Origin: Trissonchulus latispiculum
Taxonomy: Eukaryota > Nematoda > Enoplea > Enoplida > Ironidae
Assembly: GCA_030248195.1 (NCBI GenBank)
Contig: JASAND010030736.1
Span: forward strand, 61,807 to 125,806
DNA: 64,000 nt
Direction of reading: 5' to 3'
Shown: positions 1 through 57,590 of the stretch, one piece after another
Layout: the number at the start of each line of letters is the position of its first letter
Position numbering within the stretch: position 1 is the first letter of the stretch
Notes under the pieces: generated by a model
Databases searched by the model: none
The model's input: the letters and a program-made list of their open reading frames with translations, nothing else
What the model was told of the DNA's origin: nothing
Translations under genes and position numbers: made by a program

Positions 1-29
1 GGCTGATTAAAGAAAAGCCAAAAACGACA

Positions 30-425
30 ATGACTGTTAAAAGGGAGTCATCTCCCCAGACTGACAGCATTATTGTGGATAACCTTCCACCAGCAGTCCA
101 AACGAAAGGTAGAATGCTTATCCAGCATTTGCAAGGCATTAAGGGTTTTAGAGTAAACGATAGGGGAGAAATTGAGTATAAAGGACAAATTGCCCCTGAC
201 TCACGGATATTTGATCTTATTAATGACTTTGTCAGGAAACGGAAGACAAAATCGTCTCAACCTGGCGACGATTTATTTGTCGAAGCTCTACGAGATAGCA
301 ATGTACCCCGCGAATTTATAGGTAACTCAGCCCGATGGGCTGATATTCGAAAGCATAAAAAGCAAATTGGACGCGGATCTAATATATCCAGTGCTCTAAA
401 ACGTTTAAAATGGAAGCGATCTTAG
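30..425 (+). CDS. Polinton-associated conserved small protein (131 aa), function unknown
   Basis: I recognise the general look of this protein from small ORFs that sit just upstream of integrase or capsid genes in animal Polintons, but no function is known to me. It is charged. An N-terminal third carries a LPPAVQTKGRMLIQHL stretch, followed by a GEIEYKG beta-like segment and a LINDFVRKRK helix; the C-terminus is strongly basic (RLKWKRS). It ends 16 nt inside the start of the integrase gene, so the two reading frames overlap, which fits co-transcription in a compact viral-type gene block. The ATG at 30 is the first in frame; the window edge lies only 29 bases upstream, so an N-terminal extension cannot be excluded. 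Family assignment is from memory and inference. Confidence 0.7.
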   Translation: MTVKRESSPQTDSIIVDNLPPAVQTKGRMLIQHLQGIKGFRVNDRGEIEYKGQIAPDSRIFDLINDFVRKRKTKSSQPGDDLFVEALRDSNVPREFIGNSARWADIRKHKKQIGRGSNISSALKRLKWKRS

Positions 426-1474
426 ATGAACTATATTATAACCCTAGCAGAAACACTGCTTTCACAGGTCAACAGGCACTGCTGAGTAAAGCTGCCGGTG
501 CTACTACCCAAAATGTGCGAGACTATCTCAAGAAGCAGTATACCTATACTATGCACAAACCCATCAAGCGAAACTATAGAAGAAGGCGCTATGAAGTTGC
601 TGGAATAGATAAGCTTTGGCAGGTCGATTTGGCCGACATGGTTAGAGTAGCAGATGACAACGATGGGTACAAGTATCTACTTACTTGTGTTGACGTCTTC
701 TCCAAGTACGCCTGGGTTGCTCCAGTGAAATCAAAGGCAGGTACAGATGTAGCCAATGCCTTTAAAACCATTCTGGACGGCGGGCGATTTCCTAAAGCTC
801 TACAATCAGACAAGGGAAAGGAATTTCTCAACAGCACTTTTCAGAAACTGCTGAGGGAAAACGACATTCACTTTTACACATGCAACAATCCCGATATCAA
901 GTGTAGTCTTGTTGAGAGGTTTAACAGAACCATAAAGACAAAACTATTCAAGTACTTTACCAAAAACAGAACCTACAAATACATAGATGTGCTACCTCAA
1001 CTGGTAGCAGGATATAACGATTCCAAACACCGAAGCATTAAAATGAGTCCAAATATGGCCTCGGATCCACAAAACCAGTATAAGGTCTTCAAGAACCTAT
1101 ATGGTAAAATAGTACCATTTAAGGCCCCGACATTTAGTGAAGGAGATATTGTGAGAATTAGCCGATCAAAAGGCATTTTTGAAAAGGGATATCTCCCAAA
1201 TTGGTCAGAAGAACTGTTTAAAATTACCAAACTTTCTCCAGGCCAACCTCCAATGTACAAACTAAGTGACATGCAAGGGGAACCAATTGAGGGTGGTTTC
1301 TATGAGGAGGAGCTTCAGGCAATAACTGAACCAGAGACGTATTGGATCGAAAAGATCATAAAAACTAGAGGTAGAGGCAAAAATAAGCAATATCTGGTCA
1401 AGTGGTTAGGATACCCTGACAAATTTAACAGCTGGATTAACGAAAATGACGGATTTTTACCTTCATCTACCTAG
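410..1474 (+). CDS. INT: Polinton integrase, retrovirus-type DDE core with C-terminal chromodomain
   Basis: This enzyme would insert the element into host DNA in the nucleus. The rve-type catalytic core spans roughly residues 60-225. The acid triad is visible as D73 in WQVDLADM, D134 in LQSDKGKEF and E169 in LVERFNRTIK, giving a D-61-D-35-E spacing, the classic DD35E. A beta-rich domain follows (about residues 245-300). A chromodomain-like C-terminus starts with YWIEKIIK (about 311) and contains YLVKWLGYPDKFNSWI. Cellular chromodomains bind methylated histone tails, so targeting to chromatin is an inference. The 354-aa length is normal for Polinton c-integrases and all key residues are intact. 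The 3' end overlaps the penton gene by 29 nt. Confidence in family and activity motif is high. Confidence 0.95.
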   Translation: MEAILDELYYNPSRNTAFTGQQALLSKAAGATTQNVRDYLKKQYTYTMHKPIKRNYRRRRYEVAGIDKLWQVDLADMVRVADDNDGYKYLLTCVDVFSKYAWVAPVKSKAGTDVANAFKTILDGGRFPKALQSDKGKEFLNSTFQKLLRENDIHFYTCNNPDIKCSLVERFNRTIKTKLFKYFTKNRTYKYIDVLPQLVAGYNDSKHRSIKMSPNMASDPQNQYKVFKNLYGKIVPFKAPTFSEGDIVRISRSKGIFEKGYLPNWSEELFKITKLSPGQPPMYKLSDMQGEPIEGGFYEEELQAITEPETYWIEKIIKTRGRGKNKQYLVKWLGYPDKFNSWINENDGFLPSST

Positions 1475-2282
1475 CAATACAAACAACTTTAACACTTTAA
1501 GCAGTTTTAGCGTAAAGCTACCACACCGTATAGATCTGGACGGCCAATGGGAAGTTGCTCTTGTTGAGTTTATTTATCCCGTGACATGGGCTAATCTAGG
1601 CAGAAAAGTTGACGCTATAGCGAGTATTCATTTCTCTGATGACAGCTCAAAGGCTAAAGCTCTTCCTGCAAGACATTACGCAACAGTGGAAGATTTATGC
1701 GAAGGCATAAACAAGAGCATTCAGTATATGAAAAATGAGACCGGTGAAGTGGCTGAGTGCAAGTTCTACTTTGACAAAGACCTACATCGTGTAGTGTTTA
1801 AAGTGTTTGAAAACCCAGACAATCTTGAGCACCCAAACTTTTTCAGTATCAAGTTTAGCGAAAAGTTGGCGTATATGTTGGGATTCAATGAAAGACTGCT
1901 AGATTCTCAGCCGCCTACTGAGGAAAGAGAAGATATTGACGACTGGGATTCTCTCACGTCAAGCGTCGTTACAAAACACAAGATTATTGCAACTGGGGAA
2001 CCCGATATGAGAGCTGGATTCTATTCCATGTACGTCTACTGTGACATTGTAGCACCTCAAATCGTCGGAAATACAACTGCGCCCATTCTGAGAGTCGTTC
2101 ACGTTGAAGGTGAACACGGAGACATTATAGATAAGATATACAACAACCCGCACTACGTTCCAGTACTAAAAAAGGAGTTTGACACAATCGAAATCAATAT
2201 AAACGACGATAATGCTAGACACATTGCATTTAATTACGGAAGAGTGTTTGCAAAACTGCACTTTAGAAGACAGCAATTATGA
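1446..2282 (+). CDS. Polinton/adintovirus penton-like minor capsid protein
   Basis: The 278-aa protein begins MTDFYLHLPSNTNNFNTLSS and continues with WEVALVEFIYPVTWANL, features I associate with the single jelly-roll minor capsid (penton) proteins of animal Polintons and adintoviruses. It would form capsid vertices. The sequence alternates short hydrophobic beta strands with polar loops and has no signal peptide or membrane segment. The start lies inside the end of the integrase gene (29-nt overlap in another frame) and the stop overlaps the ATG of the next gene by 4 nt, so the position between integrase and the other virion genes supports the call. The assignment rests on N-terminal pattern recognition and gene order; a structure prediction would decide it. 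Confidence 0.85.
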   Translation: MTDFYLHLPSNTNNFNTLSSFSVKLPHRIDLDGQWEVALVEFIYPVTWANLGRKVDAIASIHFSDDSSKAKALPARHYATVEDLCEGINKSIQYMKNETGEVAECKFYFDKDLHRVVFKVFENPDNLEHPNFFSIKFSEKLAYMLGFNERLLDSQPPTEEREDIDDWDSLTSSVVTKHKIIATGEPDMRAGFYSMYVYCDIVAPQIVGNTTAPILRVVHVEGEHGDIIDKIYNNPHYVPVLKKEFDTIEININDDNARHIAFNYGRVFAKLHFRRQQL

Positions 2283-2692
2283 GAACTCCATATTATCCCG
2301 AAAGCGTGAAAACCTGGGAGCACAGTTTGCTTCAAACAGGTGGGGCATTTTACAAAGGTGTGCCCTATCAGCGTGGTGGTGGATTCGGTAAGGTACTTGG
2401 TGGCATCTTCAGAGCTATATGGCCGACAGTCCGAAAAATTGGTGCTGAAGTAGGCAAAGAAGCACTACGGACAGGCTCAGAGGTCGCGAGAGACTACTTG
2501 AATAGAGGCGAAGACATTGGAACGTCGTTTAAACGACACTCAAAACAAGCCGTCGGTCGAGTCTTGGAAACCACGGGTAAGGACTTACAGGAAGGAAGAG
2601 GCCTCGGATCAAGAAAGCGCGCCAATAACATAAAAACAATAGGCAGAAGCAAAGCTAAGCGTCGAAAAAGAGACATTTTAGACTATGACTAA
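2279..2692 (+). CDS. Small basic virion-type protein (adenovirus pVI/pX-like position), 137 aa
   Basis: The protein is short, glycine-rich near the N-terminus (YQRGGGFGKVLGGIF) and very basic at the C-terminus (SRKRANNIKTIGRSKAKRRKR), with an amphipathic helical middle (residues about 40-75). In Polintons and adintoviruses a protein of this kind lies between the two capsid genes and is compared with adenovirus core or membrane-active proteins pX/pVI. The GG-containing N-terminus could be a cleavage site for the protease encoded downstream, but no exact adenain consensus is seen. The ATG overlaps the penton stop by 4 nt and the stop overlaps the major capsid ATG by 8 nt. The role is inferred from position and composition only. 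Confidence 0.7.
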   Translation: MRTPYYPESVKTWEHSLLQTGGAFYKGVPYQRGGGFGKVLGGIFRAIWPTVRKIGAEVGKEALRTGSEVARDYLNRGEDIGTSFKRHSKQAVGRVLETTGKDLQEGRGLGSRKRANNIKTIGRSKAKRRKRDILDYD

Positions 2693-4022
2693 GCGACTTG
2701 ACGCAAATTCTGTTCCCGGTTTCAAGAGTGAACTGGACTTATTCTCACTCCCACCCACTCAGGTGGCCGTTGAGAAAGGATACTGGTCAGAATATTACCC
2801 TCAAAACCCTGTAACCAATTCTGGTCCATACAGGATATTCGTCCCAAGGGACGCGTACATGTTAGACCTCAACAAAAACTACCTTTACATAAAACTCAGA
2901 GTGGTAACGGATGCTGGCGCAGCTGTGACTCAGACGGCAGCTGCTGATGGAACTGTAGACGCGGATGACTTTCCCGTTGCTCCCATCAATTTGATTGGGA
3001 AAACCCTATTTGAGCGCCTTATAGTTAAACTCAGCGACAAGGAAATTTACAACTCTGGCCCACTTTATGCATACCAAGCGTACTTGGAGACTCTGCTAAA
3101 CTACGGATGGGACGCCAAAAACTCTCATCAACAACTAAGTTTGTTTTACAAGGATGACAATTTTGAACTAGCCTCGAAAGCAGCCGGAAAAAGAGCCAAA
3201 CCGTTTCTAGATAACAACGCGGTTGAACTACTGGCTCCACTGCATTGTGACTTGTTTAAGCAGGAAAGATACTTGCTGAGCGATTGTGAGCTAGCACTGG
3301 AATTACACAGAAACAGTGATAATTTCTGTCTCATCAGTAACGGTACAAAGTACAAGATATTAGTAGACGATATTAGATGGTACGTCTGGAAAGTAAAGCC
3401 ACAAGAGTCCCTTTCCCTAGCAATCGAACAAATCTTGCAGACGCCAAATACGGCAAAATATCCTATACGAAGGATTAAAATGGCTACAAGACATATAGCT
3501 GCAGGATCTCAGCATATAATTGAAAACTCAATTTATAGTGGTCAATTACCACGAAGAGTGGTCATAAGCCTTGTAGATGCTGAAGCATTCAACGGATCTT
3601 TCACAAAGAACCCTTTCAAGTTTGAACACTGCAATGTCACAGAAATTGCCCTTAAATGTGGAGACGAATATGTGCCCAAGTATCCCTTGAAGATGGACTG
3701 GAAAACTTATCAGTACAGTTTTCCATACATGTACCTCTACGAAAACTGCGACATGGCCAACTTGGATAGGGGCATGGATATATCCTACAACAACTTTGTT
3801 AAAGGATTCACCATGTTCACCTTTAGTCTAACTGCCGATAACGTGGATACTGGAGCTATGGAATTGATTAGAGAAGGCGACTTGAGCCTCTGCATGAATC
3901 TGAAGGAGCCTTTGCCTGCTGCGGATTTCCCTCAAGGCATCGTCATAATCATATATGGAGAATTTGATAACTTGATTGCCATTGATGCCAACAGAACACC
4001 ATTCTTTGACTACGCGATATGA
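2685..4022 (+). CDS. MCP: Polinton major capsid protein (double jelly-roll, hexon-like)
   Basis: The 445-aa protein carries the SELDLFSLPPTQ motif near residue 15, followed by KGYWSEYYP, a hallmark of a large family of Polinton capsid proteins that are often left in animal genomes as uncharacterised F54H12.2-like genes. By family it is the double jelly-roll major capsid protein that trimerises into pseudo-hexagonal capsomers. Two beta-rich halves are visible, the first including PINLIGKTLFERLIVKLSD and the second including KYPIRRIKMATRHIA and PRRVVISLVDAEAF. There is no internal stop. It overlaps its upstream neighbour by 8 nt and the protease gene by 4 nt, so the virion genes form one uninterrupted block. 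Intactness suggests a recently active element. Confidence 0.93.
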   Translation: MTKRLDANSVPGFKSELDLFSLPPTQVAVEKGYWSEYYPQNPVTNSGPYRIFVPRDAYMLDLNKNYLYIKLRVVTDAGAAVTQTAAADGTVDADDFPVAPINLIGKTLFERLIVKLSDKEIYNSGPLYAYQAYLETLLNYGWDAKNSHQQLSLFYKDDNFELASKAAGKRAKPFLDNNAVELLAPLHCDLFKQERYLLSDCELALELHRNSDNFCLISNGTKYKILVDDIRWYVWKVKPQESLSLAIEQILQTPNTAKYPIRRIKMATRHIAAGSQHIIENSIYSGQLPRRVVISLVDAEAFNGSFTKNPFKFEHCNVTEIALKCGDEYVPKYPLKMDWKTYQYSFPYMYLYENCDMANLDRGMDISYNNFVKGFTMFTFSLTADNVDTGAMELIREGDLSLCMNLKEPLPAADFPQGIVIIIYGEFDNLIAIDANRTPFFDYAI

Positions 4023-4507
4023 ATACTAAAGAGATTACAGAAACGATGAAACGATGTAAAGACTTCATTGGGGTATTTGCCAGTGATTGTCTACCAAACA
4101 TCAAGTCAAGACCTGCCTGCTTTATTGCCAACACCGACCCCGCAGATCAACCTGGCCAACACTGGGTCGCCCTCTATGTTGGAAACAATATAGAATACTT
4201 TGACAGTTATGGACTGCCTCCCATTGCTGAATTTGGCAAGTACAATGTTAATAAATACAACCCTTATTGCCTCCAGAACTTTGATACTAACGTTTGTGGA
4301 GAATACTGCATCTACTTTCTACTCAAACGATGCCAAGGGCATAGTCTCGAATCTATTGTGGAATACCTGAGAAGGTGTGACAACGACCGGGTTGTAAAGA
4401 AGTTTGTGGACAGGATACGAGCAACGTGTGAAGCTGGTGGACAGTGCTGCAAATGCCGATCGTCAACGTTGTGCTTACTGGAAAGCTTGGTAAAGAAATT
4501 GCCCTGA
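4019..4507 (+). CDS. PRO: Adenain-like (ULP1-fold) cysteine protease of Polinton
   Basis: This 162-aa protease would cleave virion precursors during maturation. The catalytic set is visible: H48 in GQHWVALYV, D62 in EYFDSYG, the oxyanion-type Q86 in CLQNFD and the nucleophile C93 in NVCGEYC. Order and spacing match adenovirus adenain and ULP1/SENP proteases. A cysteine-rich tail follows (GGQCCKCRSSTLC). Its final 64 nt are shared, in another frame, with the start of the TBP-like gene. The position right after the major capsid gene fits Polinton gene sets. It could be mistaken for a host SENP, but the length and the neighbours argue against that. Confidence 0.93.
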   Translation: MNTKEITETMKRCKDFIGVFASDCLPNIKSRPACFIANTDPADQPGQHWVALYVGNNIEYFDSYGLPPIAEFGKYNVNKYNPYCLQNFDTNVCGEYCIYFLLKRCQGHSLESIVEYLRRCDNDRVVKKFVDRIRATCEAGGQCCKCRSSTLCLLESLVKKLP

Positions 4508-4947
4508 CGAAGCTGGATGATGTCTACTATCAACCTAAACGATTCAGCGGGGCTATACTGCATGATGGCTGCACATTTCTGATATTCAAGAGTGGATCTT
4601 TCAACTGTGTTGGTTCAACTTCAACCTCAGATGCGATAGAAAATGCCCATAAACTCGCAGAAAGGTTGGATGCTAGCTTGGAGAATTATAGGATATGCAA
4701 CCTTGTATTCTCAAACAAGGCCAAATCAGCTGTGGACTTGGACTCGCTCTATGAATACCTGCGCCCCTACGGTTATGTTATGATGGATCATGAGCTCTTC
4801 AGTGGAATCACCTGGAAACTCAATGGAGCTACTGTACGACTATTTCACAATGGCCAGTACTTCATCACTGGACTAAAGACGGAAGAGCATGCACAGCTTG
4901 CTGATTGCACTGTGCAACAACTATGTGATGAATTCATGAAGAAGTAA
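4444..4947 (+). CDS. TATA-binding-protein-like (TBP fold) protein encoded within the Polinton gene block
   Basis: The 167-aa protein aligns by eye with the saddle-shaped core domain of eukaryotic TBP. Repeat 1 (about residues 5-75) has IVNVV, LGKEIAL, YYQPKRFSGAIL and FLIFKSG, echoing TBP IVN-V, LGC-LDL, YNPKRFAAVIM and LIFSSGK. Repeat 2 (about 82-166) has YRICNLVFSN, HELFSGITWKL and VRLFHNGQYFITG, echoing KIQNMV, PELFPGLIYRM and LIFVSGKVVLTG. All four DNA-intercalating phenylalanines have counterparts (F34, F48, F119, F134), as do the two central asparagines (N8, N86), so minor-groove binding is plausible. It starts 64 nt inside the protease gene; M4 at 4453 is an alternative start. The stop codon overlaps an AATAAA signal. 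Inference: the element supplies its own promoter-recognition factor. Confidence 0.88.
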   Translation: MLQMPIVNVVLTGKLGKEIALTKLDDVYYQPKRFSGAILHDGCTFLIFKSGSFNCVGSTSTSDAIENAHKLAERLDASLENYRICNLVFSNKAKSAVDLDSLYEYLRPYGYVMMDHELFSGITWKLNGATVRLFHNGQYFITGLKTEEHAQLADCTVQQLCDEFMKK

Positions 4948-4951
4948 TAAA
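4946..4951 (+). promoter_or_regulatory. Polyadenylation signal AATAAA overlapping the TBP-like stop codon
   Basis: AATAAA begins on the second base of the TAA stop codon (4945-4947), an economical 3' end typical of compact viral genomes. It would place cleavage of the virion/TBP transcript near or inside the start of the next ORF at 4985. Seen directly; use is inferred. Confidence 0.5.
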
Positions 4952-4984
4952 AGGCGCTAAAATCTGACAAGAAACTGACTGACA

Positions 4985-5272
4985 ATGGAATATCAGACGA
5001 AACGAGATTATATCTTATCCACTGCCAACTTGAGGTGTGTGGAAGCGGAACTTACAGCAATCAATGGTGACACTGTGGAGTCATCAGATATCAGAGATTT
5101 TATGCTGCTCAAGTTCCAAAACTGGACGAATGATGACAAAATGTACTTGCTTATCACGGATGAATGCTACCATATTCTCTTTAAAGGATGGGTCGAGAAG
5201 TCAACAGTTGCTGACGTTTGCTCATTTCCTGAAAGAAGGAAGCTGACGGTGCTGGCTATTCACCTTGACTGA
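4985..5272 (+). CDS. Unrecognised 95-aa ORF at the 3' end of the Polinton plus-strand block
   Basis: I do not recognise this protein. It is soluble-looking and acidic, with a central KFQNWTNDDKMYLLITDECY segment suggesting alternating beta strands and a hydrophobic C-terminal strand (KLTVLAIHLD). It starts 37 nt after the TBP-like stop, on the same strand, and has no overlap with a better candidate. A second ORF in a neighbouring frame (5037-5246) is probably a shadow. The codon texture resembles the upstream genes and differs from the A+T-rich non-coding DNA further right, which supports it being a real gene. No function is proposed. Confidence 0.55.
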   Translation: MEYQTKRDYILSTANLRCVEAELTAINGDTVESSDIRDFMLLKFQNWTNDDKMYLLITDECYHILFKGWVEKSTVADVCSFPERRKLTVLAIHLD

Positions 5273-5284
5273 ACGGAAACATCA

Positions 5285-5324
5285 AACCTCTTCGGAGGTT
5301 CCGCCTGAAGCCACAGAGTGGCGG
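5285..5324. terminator. Paired GC-rich hairpins between convergent genes
   Basis: AACCTC-TTCG-GAGGTT (5285-5300) is a perfect 6-bp stem capped by the very stable TTCG tetraloop, followed at once by CCGCC (5301-5305) and its partner GGCGG (5320-5324). It lies 13 bases after the 95-aa ORF and 80 bases past the stop of the opposing zinc-finger gene, so it could shape both 3' ends. It differs from the histone-type 3' stem-loop. The role is inferred. Confidence 0.45.
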
Positions 5325-5403
5325 ATGGTTTTACTTCAGACATACATACAGTTTACATAGTTGAACAAGTTTAATTGTTATTCAGTTTCGGCTTCGTTAG
5401 TCT

Positions 5404-6232
5404 TCATCGTTTTGTTGTTTGTTTGTTGTTGTTTGTCGTTTCGCTGGTTGTTGTCGGTGGTGATTCTGGTGGTGTTGTTGTTTCAGGTCTCCGCTTCTTT
5501 GTTCCATGTGAATGAATTCGTTTGCAATGTGCCATTAGGAGATCCTGCCTGGCAAACACGTGACCACATTTGCCCATGCTGATCCCTGAGATGGCGCTGG
5601 TAGGTATCTGTTCGCAGAAACGTCTGGGAGCAATGACCGCACTGAATCCTGACCTGAAACAAAAGAAGTCGACACATGAAATAAGAACCCGACTAAAGGC
5701 AAGACATACCTGCACTCAATCAAAATGTGGTACTATCTGTATTGCAGCCACATCGAATTACCTTTTTGAAATGCTTGGTGTCCATGTGCCGCACCAATGC
5801 ATCTTTCCGGCCGAATGTCATTCCACATATGTTGCAGTTGCTCTAAAATAAAACGGTGCCGGAGAATGTCGGAGTACCTCAGAGCGAGTAAAGAGAGGCA
5901 ACATCTAAAACTCTTACCTCAAATCCGATTATCGCAAAACCTCTAATCCTCTTATCTCTAAACCACTAATCCGCTTATCTCTAAGCCTCAAATCCGCTTA
6001 TCTCTAAGCCTCAAATCCGCTTATCTCTAAACCTCTAATCCTCTTATCTCTAAAACATTAATCCTCTTATCTCTAAAACATTAATCCTCTTATCTCTAAA
6101 CCACTAATCCTCTTATCTCTAAACCACTAATCCTCTTATCTCTAAACCACTTATCTCCCAACCTCTACCTCTAAGCTCAAAACCTCAAAACCTCTGTAAA
6201 ACTATTACCTGAACATTGGTTTCTCCTTCCAT
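5404..6232 (-). CDS. Spliced C2H2 zinc-finger gene (three exons), possibly frameshifted in the last finger
   Basis: A minus-strand gene can be assembled from phase-0 exons. Exon 1 (6232-6209) encodes MEGETNVQ and ends at a GTAATA donor. Exon 2 (5842-5762) follows TTATTTTAG and encodes a perfect finger, CNICGMTFGRKDALVRHMDT-KH. Exon 3 starts at 5653 after TTTTGTTTCAG with a second perfect finger, CGHCSQTFLRTDTYQRHLRD-QH. A third finger (CGHVFARQDLLMAHCKRIH) is in the +1 frame relative to finger 2, lacks its first cysteine and has too short a linker, so a small deletion or sequencing error is likely. The finger-2 frame stops at 5483, the finger-3 frame at 5404 after a Thr/Pro/Lys-rich tail. DNA binding is the expected role. 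The gene converges on the Polinton block and diverges from the CARD gene. Confidence 0.6.
5922..6151. repeat. 23-bp minisatellite, 10 units, inside intron 1 of the zinc-finger gene
   Basis: Ten head-to-tail 23-bp units of the form AATCC[G/T]CTTATCTCTAA + CC[A/T]C[A/T] can be counted exactly (boundaries 5922, 5945, 5968, 5991, 6014, 6037, 6060, 6083, 6106, 6129). Variants are phased, with adjacent units most alike, indicating recent slippage or unequal exchange. There are no spacers, so it is not CRISPR-like. Confidence 0.9.
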
Positions 6233-6287
6233 TGTATTGTCACTGCTAGAGCCAAATGATCGTTTTAAAACCGTTTGAAATTTTGAG

Positions 6288-6362
6288 GCAGGTGCAAACA
6301 CAGCAGGGAACCCAAGCGTTAAATTTTTAATATGGACAGGTGCAATCACAGCAGGGTGCCTC
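6288..6362. repeat. Direct repeat in the divergent intergenic region
   Basis: CAGGTGCAA[A/T]CACAGCAGGG occurs twice about 49 bp apart, between the start of the zinc-finger gene (6232) and the CARD gene (6531). The position in a short bidirectional promoter interval suggests paired binding sites, which is inference. Confidence 0.5.
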
Positions 6363-6430
6363 AATGTTAGTTTTGCAGTGTGTTGTTCGTTATTTCAAAT
6401 GATGTAGTGTGTTGCGTTTTCTTCTACTTG

Positions 6431-6546
6431 ATGCTATTATACACTTGTCATTTTTTTTGTAGCTATTATGGCTCTTGTTAACGTTGCTTACTAGATGCTA
6501 TTATACACCTGTCATTTTATTGTAGCTATTATGGATCTTGTTTACG
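6431..6546 (+). repeat. Tandem duplication of about 62 bp covering the CARD-gene leader and start codon
   Basis: GATGCTATTATACAC[T/C]TGTCATTTT and TGTAGCTATTATGG[C/A]TCTTGTT occur in both copies. The first copy also has an ATG in the same relative position, which opens an 8-codon ORF ending in TAG; the second copy opens the full CARD protein. The pyrimidine tract plus TGTAG in each copy looks like a splice acceptor. Confidence 0.7.
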
Positions 6547-7034
6547 ATAACTTGGTGCTATTTTGTAATGACATGAAAGCGGAACCGATATTGGATTACC
6601 TGGTGGAAGTGGGACTATTTACCACAAGCGTTGCAGATAAGCTCAGGCTTTGCACGCCTGAACACGATAGAAATTACGAACTGTTAACGACTCTTAATCG
6701 CTACGGAGCCAATGCCTCAATTCTACTTAGAGAAGCATTGAGAACATCAGGACAGAACGACCTTATGATGATTTTGCCGGAACCTGATCAGCCATTGCAG
6801 AGAGGTGTTACTTGGAAGATTTATTCCCGCCTAAAGATGCTTCAGCAACAAAGTCATAAAACGTTTCAGTCTATGGATGCCGCACGGTTGGATGTTGTAT
6901 TTGTTCTGGGACCCATGGACTGTGATGCTCGAACTGTGGAATTCACGGAATGGTTGGGAAATCATCCCTGCAAGCGATGGACTGTTCCCGAATGGTTTAT
7001 AGCACCGTGGAACCATTATGATTGTAGTCATTGA
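6531..7034 (+). CDS. CARD death-fold domain protein (167 aa)
   Basis: Residues 1-84 from the ATG at 6531 have the six-helix CARD pattern: DNLVLFCNDM, a ILDYLVEVGLFTTSVADKL segment matching the helix 2-3 region, a HDRNYELLTTLNRYG segment matching helix 4, then AL-TSGQNDLMMIL matching the final helices. CARDs mediate homotypic assembly of apoptosis and inflammasome adaptors. The C-terminal half (about 90-167) is unrecognised and contains FVLGPMDCDARTVEFTEWLG. The ATG at 6495 would add 12 hydrophobic residues, but 6531 is preferred because the domain starts there and the leader duplication centres on it. It has no caspase or NB-ARC domain, so it resembles a CARD-only regulator; ranaviruses encode comparable CARD proteins. 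Membership in the Polinton is unproven. Confidence 0.78.
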   Translation: MDLVYDNLVLFCNDMKAEPILDYLVEVGLFTTSVADKLRLCTPEHDRNYELLTTLNRYGANASILLREALRTSGQNDLMMILPEPDQPLQRGVTWKIYSRLKMLQQQSHKTFQSMDAARLDVVFVLGPMDCDARTVEFTEWLGNHPCKRWTVPEWFIAPWNHYDCSH

Positions 7035-7104
7035 ACTTACCGTAACTGTATTTATACCTGGTATAATATGTAGTCACTTGTAAACCCTGCTGTATACTGC
7101 TTGA

Positions 7105-7110
7105 AATAAA
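7105..7110 (+). promoter_or_regulatory. Polyadenylation signal AATAAA of the CARD gene
   Basis: AATAAA lies 70 bases past the CARD-gene stop, a normal distance for an animal or viral mRNA 3' end. It supports 7034 being the true stop in the terminal exon. Confidence 0.55.
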
Positions 7111-7157
7111 ATTTTCCGCCAGTTCGCCTGGCTTAACATTATCTCTACAGCAATCAT

Positions 7158-7607
7158 GGTTCCGGCCATACACAGCACGGAGCTTACTTTGCAGAGAAAA
7201 ACTTAGCTCATATTTGAATTCTGCATGGTCGAAAACCCCTATACACAAATTTTTCCCGTTGAAAATTGATGAGTTTAAAATTTAAGCTAGGGTTAGCCTT
7301 GGTTCCGGTCAAGGGTCATGTGCAGGACGGAGCTTAGCTAGCAGAGGAAGGCTAAGCTCATATTGGAATTCTACATGCCTGAAAACCCTATAGATAAGCT
7401 TTTCCCGTTAAAAATAACGAATTTTCAATTTTAAGCTAGGGTCAGCAATGGTTCCGGTCATGGGTCACTTGCAGCGCGGAGCTTAGGTTGTAGAGGAAAA
7501 CTAAGCTCATATTTGAATTCTACATGGCCTGAAAACCCTATAGATAAATTTTTCCCACTTAAAATAGAGAATTTTCAAATTTAAGCTTGGGTCAGCCATG
7601 GTTCCGG
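7158..7607. repeat. Tandem repeat, about 143-150 bp unit, three copies
   Basis: GGTTCCGG recurs at 7158, 7301, 7450 and 7600, each time followed by conserved blocks CGGAGCTTA, AGCTCATATT-GAATTCT and GAAAACCC-TATA. Copies are about 80 percent alike. No ORF persists through the units. Confidence 0.8.
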
Positions 7608-7619
7608 GCGACAGAAGCT

Positions 7620-7800
7620 ACAGCTGAGCCTCCTCCTCCACCAGCGCCGCTTCGCCGCTTTCGCCGCTCACACCACCACCCCCACCAGGCCGCTTGGCGC
7701 TTTCGCCGCTCACACCACCACCACCCCCAGGCCGCTTTCGCCGGCTTCGCCGCTTTCGCCGCTTCGCCGCTTTCGCCGCTCACACCACCACCCCCATTTG
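7620..7800. repeat. GC-rich minisatellite of CCGCTTTCGCCGCT and CACCACCACCCCCA modules
   Basis: The stretch is built from alternating TTCGCCGC and CACCACC modules and stands out by base composition from A+T-rich flanks. Both strands are open only because of the low-complexity sequence, so no protein is called. Confidence 0.75.
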
Positions 7801-32838: not shown

Positions 32839-35800
32839 CTAGAAAAAGCCCAGTTCCCTGATGGCAGCGTTAGAGATACGGGCAGCATAGTCAATTCTAA
32901 GGATCCGACGGATGGAGCGCATTTCAAAGCCAGCGAGGAGGGAAATGTCGGACTGTTTTAGGGGCCACGTTTCGCACCCGTAAAGCAGCACTGACATGAC
33001 CGCAGCGTCAAAGACCTTCATTTTGACCGTGAGTGAGATGTCGTGATTTCGCCATAGTTTATCGTCGAGAGATGTGAACGCTGCCCGCGATCTGGCTATC
33101 CTGTACCGTATTTCGTTGGTGACAGAGCCGTTGCTGCTTATCTCTGAGCCAAGATATCGGAAGGCACTCACATTTTCTAGTTGTTCGCCATTGACCAGGA
33201 TAGTGGGCGGAGGGCATCGACTGTACAGGACTTTCGTTTTCCTGACGTTCATAAAAAGACCAACTCGTTTGGCTGCTCCAGAGACTGCGTCAAACAGTCG
33301 CTGAAGCTTATCCTCAGTTTCCGCGAGGACAGCTATATCATCTGCGTAATCGAGGTCTGAGATTTCAGTGCCGTGAATGAAAGTGGCATCCTGTCCTATC
33401 TCTGCCAATGCGGTTCGCATCACCCAGTCTACAAGACAGTTAAAGAGTAACGGCGAGAGAGGAGCACCCTGGCGAACCCCGGTTCGGACAGAGAAACTGT
33501 CAGACAGTAAACCGTGCGCACGCACACAAACAGTTGTATTTGCGTACAGCATTTTCACCAGTCTGATCAGTTTAGTTGGTGCGCCATCAGCCTTCAGGAT
33601 GGATAATAGGCCAGACCTGTCACCAGAATCAAATGCAGATTTGAAGTCTATAAAGCCAATCAGGGTAGATTTTCCATACTCATAACGCGACTCCAAGATA
33701 CGGCGCAAAGAGAATATCTGGTCAACGCAGCTACGGCTGGGCCTGAAGCCAGCTTGATTTTCTCGAAGCACTTGTTCATACGCCCTGCCCAACCTTCGAA
33801 GGATTACGAACTCCAATACTTTATATGCAGAGCACAAAAGAGAAATCCCACGATAATTGGAGCAGTCGGATCTGGAGCCTTTCTTGTGTAAAGGTATAAC
33901 AATAGAGTTATTCCATTCACCAGGCATTTCTTCCTTGTCCCATATGAGATGGATGAGATGGTGTAGTTGATGTGTTACCGCGGCGCCTCCAGCAAACAGC
34001 AGCTCCGACGGTATGGCGTCAGGGCCTGCAGCCTTTCTTAGCTTCAGGCATTTGACGGCATCCTCCACTTCACGTAAAGATGGCGGGTCACTGCTACAGG
34101 ACAGGAAGCCTAGAAATGGCAATTCTTCCGATGACAACGGGTTTGCAGGCGGATCACAGTTTAGGAGGTTGTCGAAATGCTCCTTCCATCTATCTATCTT
34201 GGCCTGGTTAGCCGAGATGGGATCTCCTTGACGGTCATTTAGGACTTCACTTGGCTTGGATCTGGGCAGGCCGAGTTTCTTCATCAGTTTGAAGACACTG
34301 TACCACTTACCACTGTTCAGGGAGTTGTTGATTTCGGCAGCAATGGATCTCCAATAATTATTACGATCTCTCCTGACATTGTTTCTGATCTGCCTGTTGA
34401 GATGTCGATGCTCAGCACTACCAATTCTGTGCCTGTATGGGAAACGAACTCTGCGGTCTTCGACCAGGTCTAATGTATCACGTTGCAAAACGATGTCTTG
34501 ATCCCTGTTCACCGAGCCCAGTACATGACCCGCAACGTTTCTGACGTTCTCAGATAACTCAGTCCACGCTTGATCAGTGTCATTAATTTGATGGTCCCCG
34601 TTGGTAAGGCCCTCCAATTCGTTGACGTACTGATTTCGGATGGCGGGATCAGCCAGTCTGGACACAGCATAGGTCTTAGGTCTTCTGCTGACTTGGGCGC
34701 TGAGCTTGAGCTTTACCACACATTTCACCAGCGCGTGATCAGATTGAAAATCAGTGCCCCAATATGATCGACAGTTCAGGGCTGACCCCCTCCATCGGCT
34801 TCGGCATAAAATAAAATCAATTTGATTTAACGTCTTTCCGTTTGGGGATACCCAAGAAACTAGGTGCCTTCGTCGGTGCCTGAAGTTGGTAGACAGGGCA
34901 AATAGGTCAAACCTGGCCAGAAGTCCCATAAGACGATCTCCATTCGCAGTTCTGCGGCCAATGGCAAATCTACCTGCATACCGACGTTCAGCCGGATCAG
35001 TTGGGCCGAGCTGGGCGTTAAAGTCACCCATCACTAACAAGTAGTCACGCTTCGGCACGGAGGACAGCAAGGAATAGAGCTCCTGATAAAACACGTCGTT
35101 TATTGCTGGGTCACTGGCTTCTGTTGGAGCATAAACAGAAATAACTGAGGTGTTGAAAGGGTGGGTGCATAGCCTTATATAGGCCAATCTGTTAGAAATA
35201 GGTCTCCATTCTAGAACAGATTTCGAGATTCGCGGAGACAGACAAAATCCAACACCTCCGTACGCATCCACACCACCAGAATGATATAGCATCTGGGCTT
35301 ATTCTAGGGATTTTTTCTTGGGGGGGGGCTTCTTGGGGGGGGCCCCCCCCCCAAAGGTCCGAGGGGCAAGGAATTTTTGGGGGGGGGGGCGAAAATTTTT
35401 CGAAAAATATGCTAAAAATAGCGCTATTTTTCTGGCATATACTATAAAAGTTGATTTTCATAGCAAAAATAAGCAGATTTAGTGTTGAAAAGGGCAAAAA
35501 TTGAGTAAAAATCTCCGGCGAAGCCGGAAAATTTTTGAAAATTTGGCCTTCTGAGCGATTTTTTCAGGGCAAAAGTTGGTACCAAAAGGGGCACCCACTT
35601 TTTTTGGGGGGGGGACGATTTTTGGGGGGGGGGGGAACGATTTTTGGGGGGGGGGGAAGGGTGTTTATGGGGGGGGCCCCCCCCCCCCCCCACCCCCCCC
35701 CACTAGAATAAGCCCAGAGCATGTAGTGCGGCCAGGATGGTGTTTCATTGGCACTACATGGAATGGACAAGTGTCGGGTCCCACTTCCCGCGATTCTAAC

Positions 35801-41583: not shown

Positions 41584-43458
41584 TCAACCAGTGTTTTGGT
41601 TATGGCTCGCCATCCCGTCCGTCACAATCTGACGCCACTGAACACGATCTTGAGCGATATTCTGAGAGATGTCCAGCCAATTTCTGTTCCATATGGCGGC
41701 ACCAAACGCCCGTTTTTGGTGTGAGAGGTCACTTTCCACTAGGTTCAGCCAGAGCTTCTTGGGCGCGTTTCGGGTGCATTTCCAGCCAAGCGGCTTCGGA
41801 TCGAACAGTATTCTCTTCGGCAGGCGCTCATTGCTCATCCTACAGACGTGGCCGAACCATCGTAGGCGACGCGCTGCAACCTGTGCCGAGAGGCTACTCT
41901 GGTCAAGGCATGCTTTTCGGATTGCACTGTTGGTGTGGCGTTGCAACCTCGAGACTCCCAGGATCTGACGCAGGCAAGTCATCTGAAACACTTCCAACCG
42001 TCGTTTATCTACGTCTAGTAGCCTCCACGTTTCGCTGGCGTACAGAAGGATAAACAGAATGATGCAATTGTAAACCCGCATCTTGACGGCAACGCTAACT
42101 GGACGACTCCAGAGACGGGGACGAAGTCTGGCAAAGGCAGATGTTGCTTTGGCTATACGACTTGTTACATCCTCGGCAGGAGAGATGGTGTCACAGCGGA
42201 TTTGTGAGCCCAGATAGTTAAAGCAGGCAACTTCTTCAATCTGGGTGCCATTCAGATGGATGTTGCTACTGCCAAAAACCTTCGTTTTTGATGGATTTAT
42301 TTTTAGACCCAGTTTGGAAGCTGAAAGTGCTAGGTCGTCTAAAAACGCCTGAGCATCGTTTTCAGATTCTGCAAACAGGATTAGGTCGTCCGCATAAGCC
42401 AAGAACGATATTTCCAAGTTTTCAGCAACCTTGATACCTGGCCGATGTAATTTTCCCATAATCCAGTCAATCACGACATTAAAGAGAAGAGGAGATAGCA
42501 CACAGCCTTGGCGTACACCTGTGTTAATTCCAAATGACGGGGACAGGTGAAGACCGGTTCTTACACAGCTGCGGCTTTCCAAGTAAAGATTGCGCAGGAG
42601 ATCCACAATTTTGCGTGGCACGCCTTCGACAATCAGGGCATTCCACAGTGACGGTCGATGGATACTGTCAAAGGCAGCCGCAAAGTCCACAAACATAGCA
42701 ACGAATTTCTTGCCATGCCGTATACGCCTTTCCATAGCCTGCCGGAGAGTGAAGATGTTGTCAATGGTGCTTCTACCTGGACGGAATCCCGCTTGCTGCT
42801 CGGAAGCGTTTCTTTCTCGCGCCATTCTTAGCCGAGCTTGAATGATGGCTACCAATAGCTTGCCACAGACAGAGAGTAAAGTTATACCTCTATAGTTCTT
42901 GCATTCAGAATGACTGCCCTTCCCTTTATAGATTGGGCAAATTACACCATCCTTCCAGTCAGCGGGAATTCTGCCAGTTCTCCAGACGGCACAGATAAGT
43001 TGGTGTAAGGGAAGTAGAACAGGGTCACCCCCATGCTTTAAACATTCAATAGGCACTTCGTCGATTCCAGCTGCGGTGCCAGGCTTAGAGTTTGAAATGG
43101 CCCTTTTCACTTCTTCCAACGTTGGCTCATCCGTCGAAATTTCCCCATTAGACGTTGCTGAGGATGCCTGCGTAATCAGGTCCTGGTCCAACTCCGGAGG
43201 ATCGGGACGGTTAAGTAGCTCGCTGAAGTATTCGGACCATCTATTCCGACGCCCTTCATCCGATGATATTAGATTTCCTTGTGCATCCTTCAGGGAACTG
43301 TCGGCCACGCAGCGGCCGGACGGACCGGTCATTGCATTGATGGTTCGGAAGAGTGTCCTTTGATCTCCTATATTAGCTGCCTGTTCCACCTTCGCACACT
43401 GGTTAATCCACCAGTTCTCCTCATCGTTTTGAAGACTTGCTTTGATTGCTCGGTTCAA
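41584..43458 (-). pseudogene. RTE/CR1-like reverse transcriptase, 5'-truncated copy of a second family (624 aa)
   Basis: An uninterrupted minus-strand frame has the reverse transcriptase motifs YRGITLLSVCGK, AGFRPGRSTIDNIF, FVDFAAAFDS (A), GVRQGCVLSPLLFN (B), FLAYADDLILF (C) and CFNYLGSQI, then a C-terminal RLRWFGHVCRM segment usual in RTE-type elements. The endonuclease domain is absent: the copy starts abruptly near 43458 close to the palindrome at 43509, typical of 5' truncation during reverse transcription. It differs clearly from the family at 32839-35944. After the stop there is an AGTACAAGTA-type microsatellite (41545-41580), a tail style known in RTE elements. No disabling mutation lies within the remaining frame. 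Confidence 0.9.
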
Positions 43459-54708: not shown

Positions 54709-55468
54709 CTGAGTTGGCGCCGGGTCCGGGTACCCGCGGGCCGGGCCGGGTCCAATTTTAGGACCCGCGGGTCCGGGTACCCACGGGTCCAGATCCGGGT
54801 CCGGATCCAAAATCCTGAAGAAAACTGGATTTTGGTACATTTGGGGATGTTAAAACATTGCAATTTGTAGTATTTCTAATAAAAAGTTGGTGGAACCGGT
54901 GTCTTAGGCATTGAGATACAATGTTTAGTTGACTAGTTGAGGTCTTTCTGATCTATGCTGCTCTGCTGGGCTAGAAACACAATATGTAGTAACTAGAATT
55001 GGAAGTAGAAATATGACAACTCGAATTGATAAGTTAGCATAAAGTTTTGCAGTGCACGCAAAACTTAATCTAGTAAACAAGCTCAAGGACATTGTTTTCA
55101 AATACATGCCACCAAAAATGTGTTCACATTCTTTCCTCCAAAGCATTGGTAACTTGTGCGAAGGACAGTCTCACACTGTCTCTGGACTATCACATAACTG
55201 CTACTGCTTTTGTTAGCCCTAGCATTCAAAATTGTCGTGAGGCGTAAGATATCAGTTAACCTAAACCTTATCACAGGTTTTATTCGCGGCTGGGCTATTA
55301 CAGTAGTAAAGTTGCAATGAAATTTAAGAATGCAGTGAATGTTTGAAATGCAAACTGGTTCGTGTTTTAGAACCGGGTACCCGGATCAGGGTCTGGACGG
55401 GTCTGGGTCCGGCCTAACGGGTCCGGGTCCGGGCCGGGACCGAAAATTTGGACCCGGAGCCAACTCTG
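54709..55468. mobile_element. hAT-type non-autonomous element (760 bp), target duplication CATAAACA
   Basis: The left end CTGAGTTGGCGCCGGGTCC and right end GGACCCGGAGCCAACTCTG are inverted repeats. The flanking 8-bp CATAAACA (54701-54708 and 55469-55476) is perfect. CGGGTCCGGGTACCCG blocks fill the subterminal regions. The paralogous repeat at 50077-50220 has CACATAAACAGGGC uninterrupted, which confirms the insertion. No transposase ORF. Confidence 0.94.
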
Positions 55469-55804
55469 CATAAACATAGGGCATTTTTTGAAAAATGCCG
55501 AAAACGATGTAATTTGATAAAACTTGTTAGTCTATCGTGTAGAGAATGGTTTTTACGTTCAATTGGCTGTTAAAATCCACAATTGGACCTGTCCTGAGTC
55601 CTCCAATACCGAAATGGCACTTTCAGGATTTTTGGCCCCTAGCTAGCCAGAAAAGCAAAATTATCCAAATCTGATACCATAGGATGATGCAGCGTATTAG
55701 ATAGCACCGTGCTATAGTGTCGAATCGATTCCCTGTTTGGTTGTTAAAAAATTTTCAGAAAAAATTGGGTGCGTTTTCCCCCGCCACATTTGGCAATGTG
55801 CCAG

Positions 55805-56922
55805 ACTAACGGTGCATCGGATCGGTCTAATTTTTGCTGTGTGCAAAGAGGAAGACTTGCCATCATTGCAGATATTTGCAGAACGTTTCTAGCCCAACGC
55901 AGTCAAAAGTTACATCGGCCCAAACTTTTGCAAAATTTTGGCATGGTTGAACCAAAAAGTGCCATTTTCAAAATGTCAAAAAATGAGGAGTGAACCAAAT
56001 AACTTATCTTCGCACACGTAGGTTAGAAAGAGTCGCGCTTTCTGCTGATATGTTTTGGAGCTCATGCCTCCAATCGTTGACCCAGGAGGCGGGTGGGTTT
56101 TTTTCACCCCATGGCTATAATATCTGTATATTATATAGTTATTTAGTTACTTACTCTGCACAGAGGCATATGCACCCTGTTTTCGTTTCGTGTAGACGGC
56201 AGCCTCCTACTTTTTCCACAGGCAGATTATGAGTACGCTGGGCTTATTCTAGTGGGGGGGGCATAAACACCCTTCCCCACCAAAAAAAGTGGGTGCCCCT
56301 TTTGGTACCAACTTTTACCCTGAAAAATCGCTGAGAAGGCCAAATCTTCAAAAATTTTCCGGCTTCGCCGGAGATTTTTAGCCGATTTTTGCCTATTTAA
56401 GCACTATTTTTTGCACTAAAAACGAACTTTTTTGGCGATTACTATATATAAAAATAGCGCTATTTTTAGCATGTTTTTAGAAAAATCTTCGTCCCCCCCA
56501 AGAATGACTCGCCCCCCGAGGGCCCCCCAAAGAGCCCCCCCAAGAAAAATTCCCTAGAATAAGCCCAGAGTACGTATTGTCATGGGGTGAAAAAACCGAC
56601 CCCCTTTTGCGGGGAAAACTCGGGAAAACTTGGATTGGAGCGATAGTTCCAAAACTTATATACCCGCAGAAAGCGCGACTCTTACCTACGCATGCAAAGA
56701 TATATAGTCATTTGGTTCACTCCTGCTCATTTTTATGGTGTTTTGAAAATAACTCCTACTTTTTGGCCCAACCACCCAAAAATTCTACCACAAGTTTGGG
56801 CCAACGTAACTTTTGACTGGGTTGGGTTTGGGTAGAAAAGTTTTGCAAACATCTGTAATGATGGCAAACTCTTCCTCTTTGCACAAAGCAGAAATTATAG
56901 ATCGATCCGTTGCACCATTAGT
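55805..56922. mobile_element. Foldback element with arms of about 310-340 bp, loop occupied by a MITE
   Basis: Blocks CTAACGGTGCATCGGATCG, TGCAAAGAGGAAGA and TTTTTTTCACCCCATGG in the left arm (55805-56115) are mirrored in the right arm (56580-56922) with about 15 percent divergence. The MITE at 56238-56568 lies in the loop. Confidence 0.82.
56238..56568. mobile_element. CTGGGCTTATTCTAG MITE (331 bp) in the loop of a foldback element
   Basis: Perfect 15-bp TIRs are flanked by AGTACG on both sides (56232-56237, 56569-56574). The interior matches the copy at 35293 in reverse, including the CCGGCTTCGCCGG hairpin and GGTACCAAC. Confidence 0.92.
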
Positions 56923-57331
56923 AGTTAAGCAATTAAGCGATTTAAGATTTTTAAAGATTTTGGCTAAAGATCAAATTTTTCCAAGCATATTTTGACTCAA
57001 AAATTTCCGCGTACTGTGGCGAAACAGCCCTCATATTTTTGCATAATATATTTCAGAAAAAAGTTGGATAATTTCCCGATTTGTGGCGCAAAACGAAAAC
57101 CCTGACTATACGTACGTACATACGTATATATATATATATTAACCATTTAAAGCAGTCAAGCGGACGATGGTTGGTTTAACGCAGATAGGAACAACTTTAG
57201 ATAAGTGTAGAGACAATAAGTGTATATATGTTTTTTGAATGTAAAATATGCGTTAATTTCCGAGTATTGAAATATATATAATATTGAGTATATATTACAC
57301 TACAGTTGGTTCTTTATATTAAATTTAAACG

Positions 57332-57350
57332 ACCGCTATTCGCGCGGTCT
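57332..57350. repeat. Short hairpin GACCGC-TATTCGC-GCGGTC
   Basis: A 6-bp GC-rich stem at the left edge of the G/C-run repeat 57365-57590. Confidence 0.55.
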
Positions 57351-57364
57351 CAAAGTGTTTTCCC

Positions 57365-57590
57365 AAAATTTCCCAACCATTTTCGGACTGACTCCCACAA
57401 AAACGACTAATTTTGGCGACCTCCACACCAGGTTTTCAGAGTTTGCTACACCTCCCCCCCCAATTTCAGGCCAAATTCGCAAATTTAGAGGGTTTTTGGC
57501 CATTGCTGGGTACCCTCCCCCCTTCTCGAGACGAACCCCCGCCCCCCAGATTTTTCGCCCAGCCACACCTATGAACCCCTGTATCTCCGC
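57365..57590. repeat. C-run-rich dispersed repeat (inverted relative of 49880-50070)
   Basis: GGGTACCCTCCCCCCTTCTCG and CCCCCCAGATTTTTCGCCC blocks match 49880-50070 in reverse complement. Confidence 0.65.

Follow-up and report, generated by a model that had tools for sequence, protein, structure and literature searches.

A TATA-binding protein gene, recognized by sequence and predicted fold, in a Polinton-type element of the nematode Trissonchulus latispiculum

The stretch of Trissonchulus latispiculum DNA analyzed here (64,000 nt; GenBank assembly GCA_030248195.1, contig JASAND010030736.1, positions 61,807 to 125,806, referred to as “the window”) contains part of an integrated mobile element of the Polinton (Maverick) type. 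Behind its capsid and protease genes, the element carries an open reading frame (ORF) which, by sequence match and predicted fold, is a virus-encoded TATA-binding protein (TBP) of the TBP family PF00352. It is likely that this TBP belongs to an endogenous Polinton lineage and serves the element's own promoters via host TFIIB and RNA polymerase II.

The open frame at 4444-4947 on the forward strand comprises 167 codons, as stated in a preliminary description of this DNA, and the codon at 4444 is GTG. With a eukaryotic start at the first in-frame ATG (position 4453), however, the protein has 164 amino acids (aa), and the overlap with the protease gene, which is real, measures 55 nt instead of the 64 nt that are counted from the GTG. 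This overlap encodes the conserved first TBP strand (MPIVNVV...). PF00352 matches the ORF in two stretches (86.8 bits, cut-off 22.9; E 8.6e-25), thereby bearing out the proposed pair of TBP half-repeats. The NCBIfam TBP models match far under their own cut-offs (best 55 bits vs. 181, E 6.5e-15). Of 35 sequence matches in the Protein Data Bank, 34 are named TBP, TFIID or TBP fusion (best E 2.7e-11), and the remaining one is the ECU04_1440 protein. The AF2 model (pLDDT 91.6) displays the expected two-lobed saddle, with TBPs being matched by Foldseek and VIA. Identity to the structure-matched TBPs is about 22-28% over the fold and about 24% to human TBP. The structure matches include proteins of Heterosigma akashiwo virus, Ectocarpus virus, Terrestrivirus and others, and eight of the 40 best are named TBP or TFIID.

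Residue positions were matched by alignment to the human TBP core. The four phenylalanines (F34, F48, F119, and F134) and two central asparagines (N8 and N86) named in the preliminary description do align with the equivalent human residues, which we take to be the DNA-inserting and central positions of TBP. According to the alignments, the protein consists of the TBP core alone, lacking an N-terminal domain, and its inter-repeat stretch is shorter than that of human TBP. The TBP-like factor TRF2/TBPL1 has lost the DNA-inserting phenylalanines, a hallmark that is absent from the window protein, which keeps its DNA-inserting aromatics. A chance origin of the frame is excluded by the E-values and the model together with the open, selected copies elsewhere in the genome.

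These copies were searched with the TBP, the capsid protein and PolB in the 734 Mb assembly that holds the window; as 150 of 882 TBP, 95 of 1639 capsid and 77 of 935 PolB candidates were scored, the resulting counts are lower bounds. All of the best 150 TBP candidates matched, with identities from 100% down to 41%, and 123 of them, some partial, are free of internal stops. The best 95 capsid candidates matched without exception at 68-100% identity, and 67 of them are followed on the same strand by a TBP match within 3.5 kb, the distance being 350-519 or 889-896 nt in 65 of these 67 pairs. Forty stretches were fetched for a close look: 20 of the 67 with a TBP match and 20 of the 28 without. The protease is present in all 40, and TBP follows it in 36, namely in the entire first set, always unbroken, and in 16 stretches of the second set (10 unbroken, 6 broken). 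At least ten missing matches therefore correspond to unscored candidates, the rest to broken or absent genes. The 31 unbroken copies, which include the window and represent 30 distinct proteins, all show a TBP start inside the protease gene, 10-55 nt ahead of its end; the C-terminal ends are altered in L024 and L058. Values of dN/dS range from 0.07 to 0.35 with a median of 0.12 (18 representatives, overlap excluded; 14 of 153 pairs with usable synonymous divergence), and by this measure of sequence change the TBP is under purifying selection. N8, F34, F48, N86, and F134 are identical in all 32 alignment rows, which comprise the in-genome copies, human TBP and the related contig L002. The position of F119 is occupied by Phe in 12 rows and by Tyr in 20, the latter being found in 20 of 30 in-genome relatives.

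The element exhibits several Polinton/Maverick features: an rve integrase with chromodomain, a packaging ATPase and terminal inverted repeats (about 2.2 kb, 89-93%). A capsid module of double jelly-roll capsid, minor capsid and protease is present as well, with the minor capsid assigned by position and kinship only and the protease scoring under the Pfam cut-off. As the inverted repeats enclose the whole, the element is about 14.3 kb in size. Classical Polintons have PolB. None was found among nine window ORFs or eight of 11 ORFs of at least 100 aa in L062, which covers left parts of the element and whose largest ORF has 309 aa; likewise, C20841, where the left inverted repeat lies, is absent from the PolB family matches listed for 77 of 935 candidates. 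The original designation as a Polinton gene block thus stands for the module genes, the ATPase and the inverted repeats, but with no PolB found between these repeats the window element is a PolB-less Polinton-type element and not a complete classical Polinton. Polinton/Maverick insertion produces a 6-bp target duplication; the ends of the window element fall in a G-rich minisatellite, where no clear target duplication is readable. For vertebrate Mavericks, AGT/ACT end motifs are described in the available text of PMC8097293.

In at least eight other places of the genome (C8536, C10462, C19086, C12783, C1853, C10649, C3984, and C3560), PolB (PF03175) precedes a same-strand TBP by 9.1-10.1 kb, and in two of them the contig also has a capsid match. 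Each PolB-TBP pair would represent one element, and PolB-bearing Polintons would then carry TBP too. The eight places are likely PolB-bearing relatives that share their genome with the PolB-less window element.

A relative from outside this genome was obtained with the capsid-protein profile, which matched a single contig in a prokaryote genome set. This contig, L002 (11.6 kb), is filed under a Planctomycetota metagenome-assembled genome, where it is, in our view, mis-binned. From a packaging-ATPase-like ORF (PF04665 0.0047, under cut-off) to the protease, its gene order is the same as in the window's element, and the kin of the window protease matches PF00770 with 7.4e-4, likewise under cut-off. 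The L002 TBP (L002:2559-3077; PF00352 3.4e-45) is 46% identical to the human TBP core and groups with two eukaryotic TBPs in the tree (95/87), which makes a eukaryotic TBP the likely ultimate source of this gene. Window and L002 TBPs share 23-26% identity. Neither a group of both with the two eukaryotic TBPs (p-AU 0.59) nor a group of window and L002 alone (p-AU 0.43) is rejected; the window protein is too diverged to be placed, and the two TBPs may or may not go back to a single capture. TATAWAWR is enriched in L002 (13 seen vs. 3.5 expected; 0 of 200 shuffles as high). In addition, L002 contains seven copies of the palindrome GAGTGTCNNGACACTC with at most one mismatch (0.28 expected with at most three), and four of the seven lie 4-15 nt from a TATA box, which suggests a promoter unit of operator-like design. 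The window lacks this palindrome.

Taken together, the kept saddle, the kept DNA-inserting residues and purifying selection point to DNA binding. Promoter recognition for the element's genes would be the simplest role of its TBP. The retention of the gene at one place and under selection in many related elements suggests that they choose their own promoters. In this model, the TBP would be expressed together with the capsid-protease block or just after it and would fold as a two-lobed saddle, whose aromatic residues would enter the minor groove at a TATA-like site in the element's promoters and bend the DNA. The promoter-bound protein would then recruit host TFIIB and RNA polymerase II, rendering the element less dependent on host TFIID. 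A different DNA preference could result from the exchange of Phe for Tyr in the C-terminal stirrup. A wider scheme is put forward tentatively: an entire clade of Polintons may possess its own promoter system, in which a viral TBP of distinctive DNA preference is matched to element-specific boxes, and PolB-less elements such as that of the window may be satellites which have kept the module of capsid and TBP genes but depend for replication on PolB-bearing relatives in the same genome.

Several observations weigh against the reading of the ORF as a promoter-serving TBP of a Polinton lineage. TATAWAWR does not occur in window positions 1-5400 (0 seen vs. 1.9 expected), and k-mers upstream of 17 starts scored no better than shuffles. 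Internal stops are carried by 27 of the best 150 of 882 TBP candidates, and to the six stretches with a broken TBP four of the 40 without TBP have to be added (L042, L044, L045, and L046, with protease frames of 148, 135, 159, and 137 plus 80 aa, respectively; window, 165 aa). TBP is also more variable than the capsid protein (e.g., 45% vs. 70% identity). In L002, the gene lies on the other strand beside the ATPase-like ORF, and its position is hence not fixed across the wider group. Finally, a very long branch (4.36) leads to the window TBP, which is unplaceable in the tree.

The variant TATA sequence that the preliminary description suggested for the late capsid block stays a conjecture, as window 1-5400 contains no TATAWAWR and candidate boxes in the nematode elements are ambiguous. 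The sequence TAATAAAAGG is found in all six window-like copies (the window and L022-L026), although in L024 it is located inside a longer TBP frame with none after the stop. It is enriched in L062 (3 seen vs. 0.04 expected), while the 64 kb of the window contain a single site against 0.40 expected, which is not significant by itself. The four sites are situated in the last 19 nt of a gene or at most 31 nt after it and, at the same time, have the next ATG of their own strand 22-54 nt downstream. Because of this location and the AATAAA that they contain, a poly(A) signal and a variant TATA are indistinguishable; the box may be a poly(A) signal. ATAAAA boxes precede the starts of the major capsid protein (MCP) in 8 of 12 loci, of the penton in 10 of 12 and of PW in 0 of 12; those before MCP and penton sit in coding sequence, which could explain them.

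The main rival explanation is a decoy directed against host transcription, in which the TBP binds host TFIIB, TFIIA or other partners, or else host TATA boxes, and shuts down host or antiviral transcription instead of starting element genes. A bare core with a shorter inter-repeat stretch, in which host regulation may be lost, and further possibly host-facing genes of the element (CARD, NADAR) would fit such a role. We nevertheless consider it unlikely, as the DNA-inserting residues are strictly kept, which a partner-only decoy would not need, and as the TATAWAWR enrichment and the TATA boxes near palindromes in L002 speak for promoter use. Less probable again is a repurposed DNA-bending protein for packaging, a replication origin or integration. 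TBP-like folds do recur outside transcription, the gene is located at the end of the virion-gene block in overlap with the protease, and the lack of TATAWAWR in window 1-5400 agrees with this idea; against it stand the full two-repeat saddle with its DNA-inserting residues and the location of the L002 gene outside the virion block. That the ORF is a host TBP exon or pseudogene of recent capture, carried by chance, is scarcely credible even with a eukaryotic TBP as likely ultimate source of the L002 gene, since identity to L002 and human TBP is low, most scored copies (123 of 150, some partial) lack internal stops, and the recurrent position, the protease overlap in 31 of 31 copies and purifying selection support the earlier claim of an integral element gene.

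The features of the element within the window are compiled in Table 1.

Table 1. Positions of the element's features in the window and the evidence for each.
Feature	Position	Strand	Evidence
ORF before integrase	30..425	+	33% over 89 aa to L002:4170-4970
rve integrase with chromodomain	410..1474	+	PF00665 6.4e-14, PF00385 2.1e-8
Minor capsid (penton-like), name inferred from position	1446..2282	+	Position as in vertebrate Mavericks; 30% to L002 ORF
PW-like small virion protein, name inferred from position	2279..2692	+	Vertebrate Maverick position; 42% over 125 aa to L002 ORF
Double jelly-roll MCP	2685..4022	+	PF21738 1.8e-6, over cut-off; 869 relatives
Adenovirus-type cysteine protease	4019..4507	+	PF00770 E 0.032, under cut-off; 36% over 120 aa to L002 ORF
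TBP gene (predicted) from first in-frame ATG, 164 aa	4453..4947	+	PF00352; AF2; Foldseek and VIA TBP matches
Overlap of TBP start with protease end, 55 nt	4453..4507	+	ORF coordinates
TAATAAAAGG box at the stop of TBP, with the following ATG 30 nt away; variant TATA or poly(A) signal	4945..4954	+	Motif search
95-aa ORF after TBP	4985..5272	+	phmmer matches in L022-L026, L043, L047-L049 (close families)
Terminal inverted repeat on the right, about 2.2 kb (approximate ends)	5592..7795	.	Inverted match to C20841 near 55324-57589 (L063, L062)
23-nt tandem repeat inside inverted repeat	5922..6155	.	Repeat found in window
CARD-domain ORF inside right inverted repeat	6495..7034	+	PF00619 1.4e-8

The minor capsid ORF has no Pfam match. 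When iterated, the search with the 95-aa ORF strayed into TBPs, apparently via broken, frame-fusing copies, and was discarded in favor of its first-round matches. The inverted repeats are 92.9% identical over 1656 columns and 88.7% over 345 columns of their outer part. In the left part of the element (L062, L063), the genes are arranged inward as CARD ORF, C2H2 zinc-finger ORF, small ORFs, C2H2+NADAR ORF, packaging ATPase (L062:4799-5446; PF04665 7.9e-6, over cut-off) and a 112-aa ORF. With the second CARD ORF at L062:349-888 (1.6e-8), the element carries this gene twice, in opposite orientation, once per terminal inverted repeat. In the C2H2+NADAR ORF (L062:4035-4727; PF08719 8e-32), a zinc finger is fused to the NADAR domain. 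Elsewhere in the window, long reverse-transcriptase-like ORFs were recognized by eye from translations at 32839-35292 and 41584-43458 on the minus strand.

With regard to RNA elements, Rfam found nothing at gathering cut-offs in 11 sources. Hammerhead-type ribozyme cores were observed 38-68 nt past the last TBP sense codon in 9 of the 31 unbroken copies (L034, L037, L051, L054, L055, L056, L057, L059, and L060). Three of these nine were run against Rfam Hammerhead_3, all remaining under the gathering score (E 1.4e-5 for L051, 0.0017 for L056, and 0.051 for L034). The literature search yielded no link between ribozymes and Polintons; the available text of PMC6431247 concerns other elements. At the place where other families have the hammerhead, L028 and L030 share a GC-rich, hairpin-like stretch seen by eye after the TBP stop, GACAGCGG...GTGCTGTCGTTAAGG, for which Rfam gave no ribozyme match.

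Other collections provided few relatives. A plain search of a large protein collection with the window TBP returned one weak relative (E 0.03). In IMG/VR, single-sequence scans with TBP, MCP and integrase and a scan with an MCP alignment gave no relative. Scans with TBP alignments found 12 loci on 11 contigs (L001, L003-L013), which were rejected as profiles for MCP, integrase, penton, PW, protease and orf1 hit none of these loci at E 0.05; L001 resembles an archaeal tailed virus by eye. In a phage collection, the MCP had no match and the TBP a single weak one (E 0.09); PHROGs gave no TBP match.

The preliminary description had presented TBP as undescribed among Polinton and adintovirus genes. 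This held in full-text literature searches, which found no such report within a scope that left outside the original adintovirus description and the first Polinton papers. The available texts of PMC10675990, PMC11071296, PMC10132985, PMC11410667, PMC8097293, PMC4028283, PMC12220804, and PMC6431247 contain none, and counts of the terms TBP and TATA gave none in PMC11071308, PMC10120064, and PMC4642659.

Compared with known systems, the window TBP shares the two-repeat saddle, the DNA-inserting residues and the core length with eukaryotic and archaeal TBPs (PF00352), from which it differs by its low identity, its shorter inter-repeat stretch, its encoding by a mobile element and, in two thirds of the in-genome relatives (20 of 30), a Tyr at one DNA-inserting aromatic position. 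A virus-encoded TBP is also known from giant viruses (Nucleocytoviricota) and mirusviruses; these are large viruses, whereas the window TBP resides in an integrated element that encodes an rve integrase and measures about 14 kb. Polintons are small and integrated, and some authors place them close to where several groups of eukaryotic DNA viruses originated. In the literature surveyed, as far as its available text extends, virus-encoded TBPs are those of large DNA viruses and of mirusviruses, the latter having TBP in 59% of genomes (PMC10132985), and elements of putative mirusvirus origin in an alga carry sporadic TBP genes without double jelly-roll capsids (PMC10675990). With respect to Polinton/Maverick elements and adintoviruses, integrase, minor capsid, PW, major capsid and protease are arranged as in the second module of vertebrate Mavericks described in PMC8097293, whose main text makes no use of TATA or TBP; the window's element differs in that no PolB was found. 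With a TBP as a selected Polinton gene, two questions become accessible to testing: whether these elements control their own transcription initiation, and whether a common history connects Polinton TBPs with those of large viruses.
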